Below are positions 38,651 through 60,397 of a stretch of DNA of 64,000 bases, piece after piece. Source of the stretch: Sulfurimicrobium lacus. Its GTDB lineage: Bacteria > Pseudomonadota > Gammaproteobacteria > Burkholderiales > Sulfuricellaceae. Every line of letters begins with the position of its first letter. Position 1 is the first letter of the stretch. The stretch covers positions 248,001 through 312,000 of the forward strand of contig NZ_AP022853.1 of the NCBI RefSeq assembly GCF_011764585.1, given 5' to 3'. The position numbers were made by a program, and so were the translations under genes. The notes beneath the pieces are model-generated. The model had not been told where the DNA came from, did no database searches, and saw nothing but the letters and a program-made list of their open reading frames with translations.

Positions 38651-39642
38651 AGCTTGCCGTGCTCGGTGCCGGAGCCTGGGGGACGGCATTGGCGGCCAGC
38701 CTGAGCGCACATCACGATGTCACCCTGTGGGCGCGCAATGCTTCTCAGGCAGCCGAGATGGATTCGCAGCGCTGCAATTCACGCTATTTGCCCGATATTA
38801 CCCTTTCCGCTGAGCTGCATTTCTCGTCCGACCTTGCGCAGACTCTGCATGGCGCGGAGCTGATGCTGGCGGTCGTGCCCAGTGGCGCATTGCGGCCGCT
38901 GTTGCGCGAAGTGGCGAGGCTTGCGCCGGGCGTGCCGGTGATCTGGGCATGCAAGGGCTTCGAGGTCGGCAGCCGCAAACTGCCCCACGAGGTCGCGAGC
39001 GAGGAATTGCTGGAGCAAACTCCGTGCGGCGCGCTTTCCGGTCCCAGCTTCGCGCGCGAGGTGGCGCTCGGTTTGCCCACTGCCCTGACTCTGGCTTCCC
39101 TGAATGAAGCGTTTGCGCGCCAAAGCGCCTTGGCGCTGCACAGCAACCGCTTGCGAGTCTATGCCAGCAGCGATGTCATGGGCGTGGAGCTGGGTGGGGC
39201 GGTGAAGAACGTTCTTGCCATTGCCGCCGGCATCTCCGACGGCATGGGGTTCGGTCACAATGCCCGTGCCGCCCTGATCACGCGCGGCCTGGCGGAAATC
39301 ACCAGGCTGGGACTGGCCCTTGGCGGGCGTCAGGAGACCTTCATGGGCCTGACCGGCATGGGGGACCTGATCCTGACCTGTACCGGTGACCTGTCACGCA
39401 ATCGCCAGGTGGGCCTCAAACTGGCGCAGGGCAAGTCGCTGGAAGCCATTCTGCGCGATCTTGGCCATGTGGCGGAGGGCGTCAACACGGCGCGCGAGGT
39501 GCTCGAGCTGGCCCGCCAGTTCCAGGTCGACATGCCGATCACGCAAGCGGTTTACCAGGTTCTGTTCGAGAGCGTTGCGCCCAAGGCTGCGGTGGAAGAC
39601 CTGCTGAGCCGCGAACCCGGATCTGAAGCTATCAGCCGTTAG
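38647..39642 (+). CDS. gpsA: Glycerol-3-phosphate dehydrogenase [NAD(P)+]
   Basis: Cytoplasmic enzyme that makes sn-glycerol-3-phosphate for phospholipids, 331 residues. The dinucleotide fold is [26 protein letters not shown], the catalytic lysine in [13 protein letters not shown] and [18 protein letters not shown] are diagnostic. The ATG at 38647 gives the normal N-terminus. The last five codons and the stop lie inside an AGCTATCAGC inverted repeat, so the tail EAISR is repeat-derived. Confidence 0.95.
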
Positions 39643-39658
39643 CCGTCAGCTGATAGCT
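39627..39658. repeat. AGCTATCAGC inverted repeat between gpsA and the diguanylate cyclase gene
   Basis: AGCTATCAGC at 39627-39636 and GCTGATAGCT at 39649-39658 are exact inverted copies around a 12-base loop. The gpsA stop codon (39640-39642) is in the loop, and the stop codon of the converging cyclase gene overlaps the right arm. The unit is the same as at 44.0, 44.4 and 60.3 kb. It may also act as a bidirectional terminator, though there is no T run. Confidence 0.85.
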
Positions 39659-42300: not shown

Positions 42301-44004
42301 ATGGCCAAACCTGAAAAAATCCGGTTGGGCGAGGTACTGATCCAGCAGAATCTGCTCACCGAAGACCAGCTGAAACAGGCACTGGCCGAGCAGAAAAGCA
42401 GCGGACGCAAGCTGGGCCGCATCTTCATCGAAAATGGCTTCGTCACCGAGGAAGGGATCGCCGAGGCTATCGCACGCCAGCTGCAGATCCCTTTCATCAA
42501 TCTCAAGTTTTACAATACCAACGCCGACCTGGTCAACAAGCTGCCGGAAACCCAGGCGCGCCGCTTCCGCGCGCTGGTGCTGGAAGACCGGGGTGAAACG
42601 CTGCTGGTCGGCATGGCCGACCCCTCCGACCTGTTTGCCTACGACGAGCTGGCCCGCGCGCTCAAACGCGACATCGACCTGGCCGCGGTGGCGGAAAGCC
42701 AGTTGCTGCAAACCATCGATCGCGTCTATCGCCGCACCGACCAGATCAGCGGCCTGGCCCAGGCGCTGGAACAGGAACTGGGCGACACAGTGGTGGATTT
42801 CGGCGGCGTCGGGGTCACCACCAACCTGGAAGAAGCACCAGTCGTCAAGTTGCTGCAGACCATGTTCGAGGATGCCACCCAGGTGCGGGCCTCCGACGTA
42901 CATATCGAGCCGCAGGAAACCAAGCTGCAAATCCGCTTCCGTATCGACGGCGTACTCCACCTGCAAACGGAGGCCGACAACAAGATCGCCGCGGCGCTGG
43001 TGCTGCGCCTCAAGCTCATGTCCGGCCTCGATATTTCGGAAAAGCGCGTGCCGCAGGACGGTCGTTTCAACGTCAAGATTCGCGGCCAGGCGGTGGATGT
43101 GCGTATTTCCAGCATGCCGACCCAGTACGGCGAGTCGGTGGTGATGCGTCTGCTTAACCAGAGCGGCGGGATTCCTACCCTCGACAAGCTGGGTATGCCG
43201 CCGGACATGCTGGAAAAATTCCGCAAGATCCTGCGCCGCCCCAACGGCATGGTGCTGGTTACCGGCCCGACCGGCAGCGGCAAGACCACCACGCTGTATT
43301 CGGCACTCGCCGAACTGAACTCGATCGAATCCAAGATCATCACCGTGGAAGACCCGGTGGAATACCGCTTGCCCGGCATCAACCAGGTGCAGGTGAACGA
43401 GAAAATCGATCTTTCCTTCGCCCGCGTGCTGCGCTCCACCTTGCGCCAGGACCCGGACATTATCCTGGTGGGCGAAATCCGCGACCAGGAAACCGCGCAA
43501 ATCGGCCTGCGTGCCGCCATGACCGGCCACATGGTGCTGTCCACCCTGCATACCAACGATGCCATCAGCACCCCGATCCGCCTGATCGACATGGGCGTGC
43601 CGCGTTTCATGGTGGCGACCTCGCTGCAAGTCGTGCTGGCCCAGCGCCTGGTGCGACTGGTATGCGAAAGTTGCTCCGAAACCTATGCGCTCAAGCCATT
43701 CGAACATGAATGGCTGCGCCTCGAGTTGAAAGATCAGGTCGACCAGCACCATTACGTGCATGGTCGCGGCTGTACCAACTGCAACGGCACCGGCTACCAG
43801 GGTCGCATGGGTATCTATGAAATGCTGGAAATGGATTTCGACATGGTTGAAGCCGCCAACCACCACGACCCGGCCCATTTCATGAAAATGGCGCGCCAGC
43901 AGATGGCGGGCAAAACCCTGCGTACCCAGGCGGTGGGAGAGGTGCTAAAGGGACGGACCACGGTTGGTGAAGCGATGCGCATCAGCAATCAGTTTGATGA
44001 GTAG
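42301..44004 (+). CDS. mshE: MSHA pilus assembly ATPase MshE
   Basis: Cytoplasmic hexameric ATPase of 567 residues driving pilus extension, in the PilB/GspE family. The N-terminal domain has two cyclic-di-GMP-binding 24-residue motifs: RLGEVLIQQNLL...LAEQ (residues 8-31) and KLGRIFIENGFV...IARQ (37-60), both fitting the MshEN pattern. Walker A is GPTGSGKTT, the Asp box region is DPDIILVGEIRDQETA, and a four-cysteine zinc site (CESC and CTNC) lies near the C-terminus. The mshG gene normally follows directly; here a four-helix-bundle element intervenes. Confidence 0.93.
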   Translation: MAKPEKIRLGEVLIQQNLLTEDQLKQALAEQKSSGRKLGRIFIENGFVTEEGIAEAIARQLQIPFINLKFYNTNADLVNKLPETQARRFRALVLEDRGETLLVGMADPSDLFAYDELARALKRDIDLAAVAESQLLQTIDRVYRRTDQISGLAQALEQELGDTVVDFGGVGVTTNLEEAPVVKLLQTMFEDATQVRASDVHIEPQETKLQIRFRIDGVLHLQTEADNKIAAALVLRLKLMSGLDISEKRVPQDGRFNVKIRGQAVDVRISSMPTQYGESVVMRLLNQSGGIPTLDKLGMPPDMLEKFRKILRRPNGMVLVTGPTGSGKTTTLYSALAELNSIESKIITVEDPVEYRLPGINQVQVNEKIDLSFARVLRSTLRQDPDIILVGEIRDQETAQIGLRAAMTGHMVLSTLHTNDAISTPIRLIDMGVPRFMVATSLQVVLAQRLVRLVCESCSETYALKPFEHEWLRLELKDQVDQHHYVHGRGCTNCNGTGYQGRMGIYEMLEMDFDMVEAANHHDPAHFMKMARQQMAGKTLRTQAVGEVLKGRTTVGEAMRISNQFDE

Positions 44005-44009
44005 GGATC

Positions 44010-44421
44010 AGCTATCAGCTTTCAGCGGTCAGCTTTGGGTGGAAGCTGCGTGAGGGACTTTCGTGATCTTGCGGTTTGGGCTAAAGCGCATCAGTTGACG
44101 CTGGCGGTGTATCGGGAAACGAGCAATTTCCCTGTTGCCGAGTTATATGGTTTGACCAGCCAGATGCGGCGTGCGGTTGCTTCTGTTCCGGCGAATATTG
44201 CCGAGGGTTGCGGAAGAAATGGAGGCGCCGATTTTGCGCGATTTCTCCAAATTGCTTTGGGTTCAGCAAGTGAACTCGAATACCATTTATTGCTGGCACG
44301 TGACCTGGGATACTTGAATTCTGTATTTCACGAAACCATGCAGATTGATACTGTGGAAGTGAAGAAAATGCTTACGTCCTTGATTCAAAAGCTGAGAACT
44401 GACCGCTGATGGCTGAAAGCT
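44010..44421 (+). mobile_element. Putative mobile element: four-helix-bundle gene between inverted arms
   Basis: The left arm at 44010-44033 (AGCTATCAGC, TTTCAGC, GGTCAGC) and the right arm at 44399-44421 are inverted, imperfect copies; over about 24 positions some 21 agree. Between them is one gene for a four-helix-bundle protein. The left arm begins 5 bases after the mshE stop and the right arm ends 4 bases before the mshG start, so the unit fills the whole mshE-mshG junction. Related arms with loops of only 12 and 18 bases stand at 39627-39658 and 60332-60397. No target-site duplication is obvious. Mobility is inference. Confidence 0.6.
44050..44409 (+). CDS. Four-helix-bundle protein (S23/IVP family)
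   Basis: Protein of 119 residues in the family first seen in 23S rRNA intervening sequences and related to Avd, the accessory protein of diversity-generating retroelements. Hallmarks are RDFRDLAVWAKAHQLTLAVY, LTSQMRRAVASVPANIAEG and FLQIALGSASELEYHLLLARDL. Biochemical role is unknown; Avd binds nucleic acid and a reverse transcriptase. I use GTG 44050 (V-RDFRDL) as the start, with GGAAG upstream. The stop is inside the right inverted arm. It has no link to pilus function, and its insertion between mshE and mshG points to transfer. Confidence 0.88.
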   Translation: MRDFRDLAVWAKAHQLTLAVYRETSNFPVAELYGLTSQMRRAVASVPANIAEGCGRNGGADFARFLQIALGSASELEYHLLLARDLGYLNSVFHETMQIDTVEVKKMLTSLIQKLRTDR

Positions 44422-44425
44422 AAAT

Positions 44426-45655
44426 ATGCCTTTTTTTGCCTATAAAGCCCGCAATGCCCGCGGCGATCTGATCGAGGGCATCCAGGAGGGGGCCGACAGC
44501 GCGGCGGTGGCGGACATGCTGTTCAATAACGGCGTGACGCCGGTCGAAATCGCCGTTTCTGCGAAAGGTCCGGGCACGCAGGGTGAAAGCCTGCTGGAGC
44601 GCATGCAGCGGCAGAGAATCACCTCCGTAGACGTGATGTTGTTTTCGCGCCAGATGTATACCCTGCTTAAGGCGGGTGTGCCGATCATGCGCGCCCTGGG
44701 CGGGTTACAGGAATCCACCCACAATAATTCCATGAAAAAAGTATTGCAGGATACCCGCGAGAGCCTGGACAGCGGGCGCGAATTATCCGCCGCCCTGCGC
44801 CGCCATCCGGAAGTGTTCAGTTCCTTCTACGTCAGCATGCTGCGCGTGGGCGAGGCCACCGGTATGCTGGAGGAAATCTTCCTGCGGCTTTTTTACTACC
44901 TGGAATTCGAAAAAAGCACCCGCGACCAGATCAAGGCGGCGATGCGGTATCCCACCTTCGTCGTCATTGCGATGACGGTGGCGATCATGGTTATCAACCT
45001 GTTCGTGATTCCGGCCTTTGCCAAGGTCTACAAAGGGTTCAATGCGGAACTGCCGCTAATGACCCGGATTTTGATCGGCGCATCGGACTTTACCGTCCAC
45101 TACTGGCCGCTCATGGTGGCGGTCGTGGTGGGAGCGGCGTTTGCCATTCGCGCTTATCTCCGCACGCCGGTGGGAAAATATCAATGGGACAGGATCAAGC
45201 TGCGCTTGCCGGTGGTCGGCAGCATTATCGAGAAAGCGACCCTGGCCCGCTTCGCCCGCAGCTTCGCCCTTGCCAGCCGCAGCGGGGTGCCAATCGTGCA
45301 AGGCATGGGCGTGGTGGCACAGGTGGTGGACAACGATTTTATTGCGAGAAAAGTTGATGACATGCGCGAGGGCGTGGAGCGCGGCGACAGCATCCTGCGC
45401 ACGGCGGTGGCAACGGGTGTATTTACCCCGGTGGTGCTGCAGATGATCGCGGTAGGCGAGGAAACGGGCTCGATCGATGACCTGATGCAGGAAATCGCCG
45501 AAATGTACGAACGCGAAGTGGCATACGAGGTCGCCAATCTGTCCGCCAAGATCGAGCCGATCCTGATCGTCGGCCTGGGTATTCTGGTCCTGATCCTGGC
45601 GCTGGGCGTATTCCTGCCGATATGGGATCTGGGGAAAGTGGCGCTGCACAAGTGA
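44426..45655 (+). CDS. mshG: MSHA inner membrane platform protein MshG
   Basis: Polytopic PilC/GspF family protein of 409 residues that couples MshE to pilin assembly. It has two homologous cytoplasmic helical domains (SRQMYTLLKAGVPIMRALGGL and FARSFALASRSGVPIVQGMG) and three membrane helices (about 172-192, 222-242, 373-395). The start ATG lies only 4 bases after the right arm of the inserted element and has no clear ribosome site, so translation may depend on the upstream four-helix-bundle frame. The GTGA overlap with mshF couples those two. Confidence 0.92.
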   Translation: MPFFAYKARNARGDLIEGIQEGADSAAVADMLFNNGVTPVEIAVSAKGPGTQGESLLERMQRQRITSVDVMLFSRQMYTLLKAGVPIMRALGGLQESTHNNSMKKVLQDTRESLDSGRELSAALRRHPEVFSSFYVSMLRVGEATGMLEEIFLRLFYYLEFEKSTRDQIKAAMRYPTFVVIAMTVAIMVINLFVIPAFAKVYKGFNAELPLMTRILIGASDFTVHYWPLMVAVVVGAAFAIRAYLRTPVGKYQWDRIKLRLPVVGSIIEKATLARFARSFALASRSGVPIVQGMGVVAQVVDNDFIARKVDDMREGVERGDSILRTAVATGVFTPVVLQMIAVGEETGSIDDLMQEIAEMYEREVAYEVANLSAKIEPILIVGLGILVLILALGVFLPIWDLGKVALHK

Positions 45656-60324: not shown

Positions 60325-60331
60325 AGCAGTC

Positions 60332-60397
60332 AGCCATCAGCTATCAGCTTTCAGCTAAACCGGTTCTGCTCTTGCTGATAGCTGATAGCTGATAGCT
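60332..60397. repeat. AGCTATCAGC inverted repeat between mshN and comF
   Basis: The left arm at 60332-60355 and right arm at 60374-60397 each contain three copies of an 8-base unit (AGCTATC-type) and are inverted copies at 22 of 24 positions, with an 18-base loop. The comF stop codon overlaps the end of the right arm. It is the longest empty copy of the repeat seen here. Confidence 0.85.

Follow-up and report, generated by a model that had tools for sequence, protein, structure and literature searches.

A four-helix-bundle gene between inverted heptad arrays is a likely small mobile element at the mshE-mshG junction of Sulfurimicrobium lacus

Our analysis of a 64,000-nucleotide stretch of the Sulfurimicrobium lacus genome (here referred to as the window) indicated that positions 44003-44425 likely constitute a small single-gene mobile element, in which a protein of the four-helix-bundle (FHB; S23/IVP) family, inferred to recognise 7-bp repeats (heptads), is encoded between inverted arms. 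Over-represented 7-bp repeats have been known in bacteria since 1990 and were assigned to slippage or regulation, and the S23/FHB family has solved structures and no function. We show the anatomy of the element, its generality across phyla, the 7-bp period, the covariation of protein and heptad, matched copies, empty sites, one 5-bp target duplication and discordant divergence. The mobility of the window element is well supported; no transposition was observed.

Results

Anatomy of the window element

The element is located between mshE and mshG, and not inside a 23S rRNA gene. The window contains the following features:

42301-44004, plus strand: mshE-like pilus/secretion ATPase gene, left neighbour, host gene (PF00437, E 3e-134; MshEN, PF05157)
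44003-44033, plus strand: left arm, tandem heptads AGGGATC AGCTATC AGCTTTC AGCGGTC AGC, core TCAGCNN
44050-44409, plus strand: FHB (S23/IVP) gene, 119 amino acids, GTG start (PF05635, TIGR02436)
44390-44421, minus strand: right arm, inverted heptads, minus-strand reading AGCTTTC AGCCATC AGCGGTC AGTTCTC AGCT
44426-45655, plus strand: mshG-like T2SSF gene, right neighbour, host gene (PF00482, E 2e-55)
39627-39658, no strand assigned: arm-only copy, short TCAGC-type hairpin between convergent genes
60325-60397, no strand assigned: arm-only copy, four heptads, loop TAAACCGGTTCTGCTCTT, three inverted heptads

The inverted arms at 44010-44032 and 44399-44421 are 23 nt long and 87% complementary, and each is a tandem array of 7-bp repeats consisting of a TCAGC core and two variable bases. 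The right arm supplies the TGA stop codon of the FHB gene and ends 4 bp before the start of mshG. The GTG at 44050 is the likely start codon, because relatives have ATG at the same codon; the TTG at 44035 is a possible alternative. The FHB gene is the only supported gene-size frame in the element, and its product passed the cut-offs of both PF05635 (129 bits [129.3], cut-off 33.8, E 8e-38) and TIGR02436 (130 bits [129.7], cut-off 24). When treated as RNA, the element folds with its arms paired (z -2.8). The window contained eight occurrences of AGCNNTCAGCNNTCAGC, whereas 100 shuffles yielded none, which ruled out chance as the origin of the arms.

The original prediction, made from the sequence alone, placed an FHB gene within inverted arms between mshE and mshG and reported two further empty copies of the arms in the window; both claims held, the coordinates were right, and the copies correspond to 39627-39658 and 60325-60397. 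It overlooked that the arms are 7-bp tandem arrays, which is true of FHB genes generally. Its statement that no reverse transcriptase or transposase is present also held within the element, where neither was found among the open reading frames examined. An HUH Y1 transposase was likewise not found in the element, the enclosed protein matching PF05635 only, and there was no reverse transcriptase with template and variable repeats within it, the rest of the genome being outside this search.

Arm-only copies in the host genome

Pattern searches of the host genome yielded 212 matches to TCAGCNNTCAGC and 4 to the reversed pattern. Of the 34 TCAGC sites inspected, 31 were located outside genes, and approximately 29 of these 31 were convergent arrays, i.e., hairpins (partly recounted by eye). 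The possibility that the arms are peculiar to one locus was ruled out by these genome-wide matches together with the armed FHB genes found elsewhere. A loop motif, AACC, was common to 11 of 25 TCAGC hairpins compared with 1.7 in shuffles, so that the arm-only copies may be copies of a defined short element. In the relatives, the junction corresponding to 60325 carried a TCAGC hairpin, a doubled hairpin, another type of repeat or none. The hairpin at 39627-39658 was not found at the corresponding junction in the relatives, but their downstream gene differs, which precludes a comparison.

Several further observations concern the hairpins and arrays themselves. The longer form of the loop motif, (A/G)AACC, was present in 10 of 25 loops of the host's TCAGC hairpins (e.g., window positions 60355-60374), compared with 0.9 in shuffles, and a similar loop was found with a different heptad at another locus (L249). 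In the 60325-type hairpin of one relative (L246 of G018), the loop of the TCAGC hairpin contains another palindromic sequence (AACGATCATGGCGATTCGCC...) that is also found in the mshE-mshG insert of the same genome (L059); this common palindrome raises the possibility of nested small elements. Heptad arrays are capable of great expansion, as demonstrated by a stretch of over 20 TCAGCAC heptads (G003:C1:2732932-2733097) and by more than 20 TCCTGAG units beside an FHB gene (L037).

The mshE-mshG junction in relatives

An intact FHB element at the mshE-mshG junction was present in the window and in two relatives (G017 and G020), while it was decayed in a third (G015). Two members of the same genus, G019 and G016, have the junction without any insert. 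Between the window and G017, the synonymous divergence (dS) of the FHB gene was 0.32 compared with 0.89 for mshE and 1.00 for mshG, and between the window and G020 the relation was reversed (1.84 compared with 0.50 and 0.72, respectively). The dS of the FHB gene is discordant with that of both flanking genes, and therefore the copies found there cannot be regarded as simple orthologues; simple vertical inheritance was ruled out by this discordant divergence.

The original prediction was open to refutation in two ways, by an armless gene at this junction in all relatives or by arms unrelated to other copies in the genome. Neither was met: the gene is not universal and is armed where present, junctions without the element occur in the same genus, other FHB genes with similar arms were found, and the window arms match approximately 30 further sites examined in the host genome.

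At the same junction, G018 and G021 (loci L059 and L062) carry a GxxExxY gene instead, with arms of longer repeats, CACGGGGNN. Among GxxExxY (PF13366) genes (including loci L195-L224), inverted arms with a score of ≥30 were observed in 27 of 32, which is more often than among FHB genes, and their cores, for example CGCAGAGT or CACGGGG, have a period of 9-10 bp and not 7. These units look like a parallel second class of one-gene elements that share the insertion sites of the FHB elements.

Armed FHB genes in many phyla

Inverted 7-bp arms flank nearly all FHB genes in the family of the host, the heptad varying by locus, and the second FHB gene of the host genome has inverted arms of a related heptad, GTGAGCN. 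Among FHB loci gathered from the host's phylum and from 80 contigs of many phyla, inverted arms (score ≥30) accompanied 83 of 150 FHB genes but only 4 of the 175 non-FHB genes at these loci (Fisher p 3e-30). A flank with a 7-bp period was seen for 79 of 150 FHB genes compared with 17 of 175 other genes (p 8e-18), and this contrast is conservative because array-rich genomes give the control genes a lag-7 signal of 9.7%. Shifted positions in the same loci showed inverted arms in 0.6% of cases. The two control sets, shifted positions and neighbouring genes, ruled out that FHB genes are unlinked passengers. The autocorrelation of the arms was 0.57 at lag 7, 0.52 at lag 14 and 0.48 at lag 21, against a background of approximately 0.26. 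At least 55% of the FHB genes are armed, this value being a lower bound because some loci scored as armless carry imperfect heptads; in fact, most of them do.

A second sample, obtained by a search seeded with a different FHB sequence, comprised 23 further FHB loci, of which 78% had inverted arms and 78% a lag of 7, with no other lags. Nearly all of 15 FHB genes on named cyanobacterial plasmids had heptads on both sides, including TAGGGAG (Nostoc edaphicum) and TAGGGTG (Calothrix). Elsewhere, FHB elements adjoin unrelated genes (nrd, cas, tra, integrase). No rRNA match was found around 20 other FHB loci, and the phage collection contained no FHB match.

Among the individual loci, the CRISPR operons of cyanobacterial plasmids contain FHB elements (L300, L301 and L299), in the order cas6-FHB-cas4 in Anabaena sp. 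90 and Pseudanabaena galeata and cas10-FHB-cmr3 in Picosynechococcus. One FHB pseudogene (L287 of G166, a genome from the class to which Xanthomonas belongs), carrying a frameshift and a stop, is located between inverted GGGAATC arms, a heptad reported to be enriched in Xanthomonas.

Insertions with empty sites in cyanobacterial plasmids

On plasmid C of Trichormus variabilis, the FHB unit accounts for exactly 428 bp of inserted sequence when compared with six plasmids whose site is empty and whose flanks are 97-98% identical. The sequence GTAAT flanks the insert on both sides and occurs once in the empty site, revealing a 5-bp target duplication. One of the empty plasmids belongs to Tolypothrix PCC 7601, reportedly the strain where the STRR repeats were described. 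In Aulosira, the same element (83% identity over 410 bp) occupies a different site. Paralogous A-B-C operons are present on two plasmids of Nostoc ATCC 53789; their FHB elements differ in heptad and are located at A-B on one plasmid and at B-C on the other, so that the two plasmids provide reciprocal empty sites; a 5-bp repeat, TTCTA, is a likely duplication at the A-B site, although it needs a one-base indel. In four of the six filled/empty comparisons the flanks were too diverged for a target duplication to be read, and the unambiguous duplication rests on one insertion only (GTAAT), in a cyanobacterial relative and not in the window copy. Arms without an FHB gene were also encountered (L320, L321).

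The heptad follows the protein, and the copies follow the gene

In 69 elements, the heptads read on the inward strand have an AG dinucleotide in common (3.26 bits; shuffled columns gave 2.53 and random strands 2.23). The similarity of the proteins was correlated with the similarity of the heptads (Mantel rho 0.24, p 5e-4), also among FHB pairs of <60% identity (rho 0.19) and in a cross-species FHB set (rho 0.18, p 0.007). When 158 FHB genes were ranked by similarity to the window FHB, TCAGC arms occurred at ranks 0-9, 15, 18, 22, 26, 36 and 82 (p 2e-9). These close relatives with TCAGC arms represent six or more phyla and include Methylobacillus, Nitrospinota, Acidobacteria, Planctomycetota, Deltaproteobacteria, an actinobacterial contig and a Dehalococcoidia contig. 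It should be noted that such covariation is predicted by recognition and also by joint descent of the whole element, and the relation between FHB relatedness and heptad similarity could in part reflect common descent and not recognition.

Dispersed copies accompanied the matching gene. Six genomes with a TAGGCAG-armed FHB gene contained 37, 55, 25, 11, 4 and 16 TAGGCAG dimers. Counts were 0-3 in the 19 genomes carrying other FHB genes, three of these genomes sharing a genus with five of the six, and 0 in the 13 genomes lacking a detected FHB gene. These counts partly represent the element's own arms, but every matched genome also has TAGGCAG dimers away from the element, and all 15 TAGGCAG sites inspected were intergenic, 10 of the 15 being convergent. 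Within the host genus, genomes possessing a GTGAG-type FHB gene contained 104, 106 and 81 GTGAGG dimers, and the others 1, 6, 26, 11 and 14. The relation was weaker for TCAGC dimers, of which there were 212, 238 and 63 in genomes with an intact TCAGC element and 14-124 in those without. Genomes without a detected FHB gene can contain many (124 in G021 and 111 in G019); possibly these assemblies are incomplete or have lost the gene.

The FHB protein

The FHB gene is under purifying selection, with dN/dS values of 0.10-0.21 (0.16-0.21 against same-site relatives), which would also be expected for a mobile element's own protein. None of R41, S45 and N49 varies across 158 diverse FHB domains, and conservation reaches 99% at Q38, E52 and E75. 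This conserved polar set might form a binding or active site, an inference for which there are no binding or catalysis data; no catalytic motif was recognised in the protein. The PDB relatives of the window FHB are 2GSC, the S23 protein of Xanthomonas campestris, and 2RLD. The former has five chains and has been described as a homopentamer (PMC4990558); a pentamer is assigned to the window FHB by relation only.

Discussion

We propose that the element inserts as one unit, mostly into the short stop-to-start gap between genes. In this model, the FHB protein, a pentamer in a solved relative, would recognise the heptads of its own element and would act in trans on arm-only copies, leading to their dispersal as intergenic hairpins, while the arrays would grow and shrink by slippage; all of these steps are inferred, and there are no binding data. 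The protein may drive insertion itself, via its invariant Q/R/S/N/E/E residues, or may guide a borrowed host or resident enzyme. The original prediction of a small element with mobilised arms is supported by the 428-bp insertion, the 5-bp duplication and the discordant divergence. Its suggestion that the protein perhaps helps mobilisation is backed by the covariation of protein and heptad and remains an inference, without binding or catalysis data.

A bolder reading is that FHB (S23) proteins are the sequence-specific factors, and possibly the catalysts, of a class of DNA mobile elements that is very widespread and has so far gone unrecognised, in which each protein would recognise its own 7-bp repeat. 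The STRR, TAACTGA, GGGAATC and TCAGC repeats and the 23S intervening sequences (IVS) would then be products of this class, and the GxxExxY units with their 9-10-bp repeats a parallel class. We consider the case for and against this reading to be evenly balanced.

Three other explanations deserve consideration. The unit might move, or mainly act, as a folded RNA like the S23-encoding IVS; the FHB protein would bind the RNA stem, and DNA would be restored by recombination or by a reverse transcriptase acting in trans. The similar anatomy of the Coxiella 23S IVS and its excision by RNase III (PMC4990558), as well as the predicted RNA fold with paired arms (z -2.8), speak for this possibility, and the related Avd protein works with a reverse transcriptase in diversity-generating retroelements. 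However, DNA must be cut to produce a 5-bp target duplication and to place the unit in protein-coding operons, the element lacks a reverse transcriptase, and the arm hairpins form equally well in DNA, so that we regard an RNA-level element as unlikely.

Even less credit can be given to the remaining two, both of which we judge very unlikely. According to one, the arrays arise from replication slippage, and the FHB protein is an unlinked DNA- or RNA-binding protein (a regulator, nucleoid or RNA-processing factor) lodged in arrays that it binds. The highly variable length of the arrays (e.g., more than 20 units in G003) fits this view, and polymerase slippage is the earlier attribution of heptameric repeats (reviewed in PMC4679880). 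Nevertheless, slippage leaves unexplained the inverted pairs, the joint insertion of arms and gene as a 428-bp block with a target duplication, the same combination of protein and heptad in several phyla and the AACC loop motif (11 of 25 hairpins against 1.7 in shuffles). According to the other, the element is a pilus-operon module that benefits the host by separating or tuning the mshE and mshG mRNA via an arm hairpin, with the FHB protein as a regulator. Its position inside the operon and the purifying selection on the protein (dN/dS 0.10-0.21) would agree with such a role, but most relatives lack the element at this junction or have a decayed copy or another gene in its place, and FHB elements elsewhere lie beside unrelated genes (nrd, cas, tra, integrase).

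If the proposed mobile element is accepted, two orphans, the S23/FHB family and the 7-bp repeats, would explain each other. The DNA target of each FHB protein could be read from its own arms, and the repeat content of a genome would become predictable. It would also mean that a mobile element can consist of one protein of approximately 120 residues without a known transposase fold and still generate a target-site duplication, and it would offer an origin for the IVS that fragment 23S rRNA.

Comparison with known systems

No paper connecting FHB proteins with heptameric repeats was found in the open-access literature searched (open-licence only, no preprints); the FHB-heptad element is real and general and, as far as this search reached, undescribed. 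Heptameric repeats themselves are well documented but of unexplained origin: TAACTGA repeats were described in one paper (PMC4679880), and GGGAATC repeats are found in Xanthomonas and Nostoc, with 70 inverted pairs in X. campestris (PMC4692102). These papers proposed slippage, G-quadruplex or translational roles; a text search revealed no mention of FHB or S23 in the former and none of S23 or four helix in the latter. Like the STRR of Calothrix and Nostoc, these repeats are 7-bp tandem arrays, intergenic and often in inverted pairs, and the TCAGC and TAGGCAG units are likewise tandem, dispersed and mostly intergenic. TAACTGA read backwards is TCAGTTA, which corresponds to the TCAGTNN arm of another FHB gene (L034), and GGGAATC is the arm heptad of the FHB pseudogene of L287, so that these two loci connect the described repeats to FHB genes. 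The heptameric repeats scattered through bacterial genomes likely derive from FHB-type elements.

Among mobile elements, REP/RAYT (TnpA-REP) systems similarly combine a single protein gene between palindromic repeats with many intergenic arm-only hairpins. RAYT, however, is an HUH-type Y1 transposase, to which the four-helix bundle is unrelated, and heptad arrays are not a feature of REPs. MITEs and small DDE insertion sequences have inverted ends, short target duplications and non-autonomous copies in common with the FHB elements, but the window element has no DDE transposase, and FHB elements end in 7-bp tandem arrays that differ between elements. As in DNA transposons generally, insertion is precise and accompanied by a short target duplication (GTAAT clean, TTCTA probable, both in cyanobacterial relatives), while no recognised transposase is encoded in the element. 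Avd of the diversity-generating retroelements is a related four-helix-bundle pentamer; in contrast, the FHB element lacks a reverse transcriptase and template or variable repeats.

The closest likeness is to the S23 IVS of 23S rRNA (Leptospira, Coxiella and others), in which an S23/FHB gene is located between inverted ends in a unit of approximately 430 bp; the Coxiella IVS has 28-bp inverted ends and, adjacent to its S23 gene, GACAGAT heptameric repeats, and is excised by RNase III (PMC4990558). The ends of the window element can likewise pair in RNA. IVS are, however, defined by their location in 23S rRNA and by RNase III excision, and the window element, lying between protein genes and thus outside rRNA, is by definition not an IVS. 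Heptad arms, dispersed copies and target duplication are not described for IVS in the literature examined. Despite these differences, the S23 IVS and the window-type elements likely belong to one superfamily.
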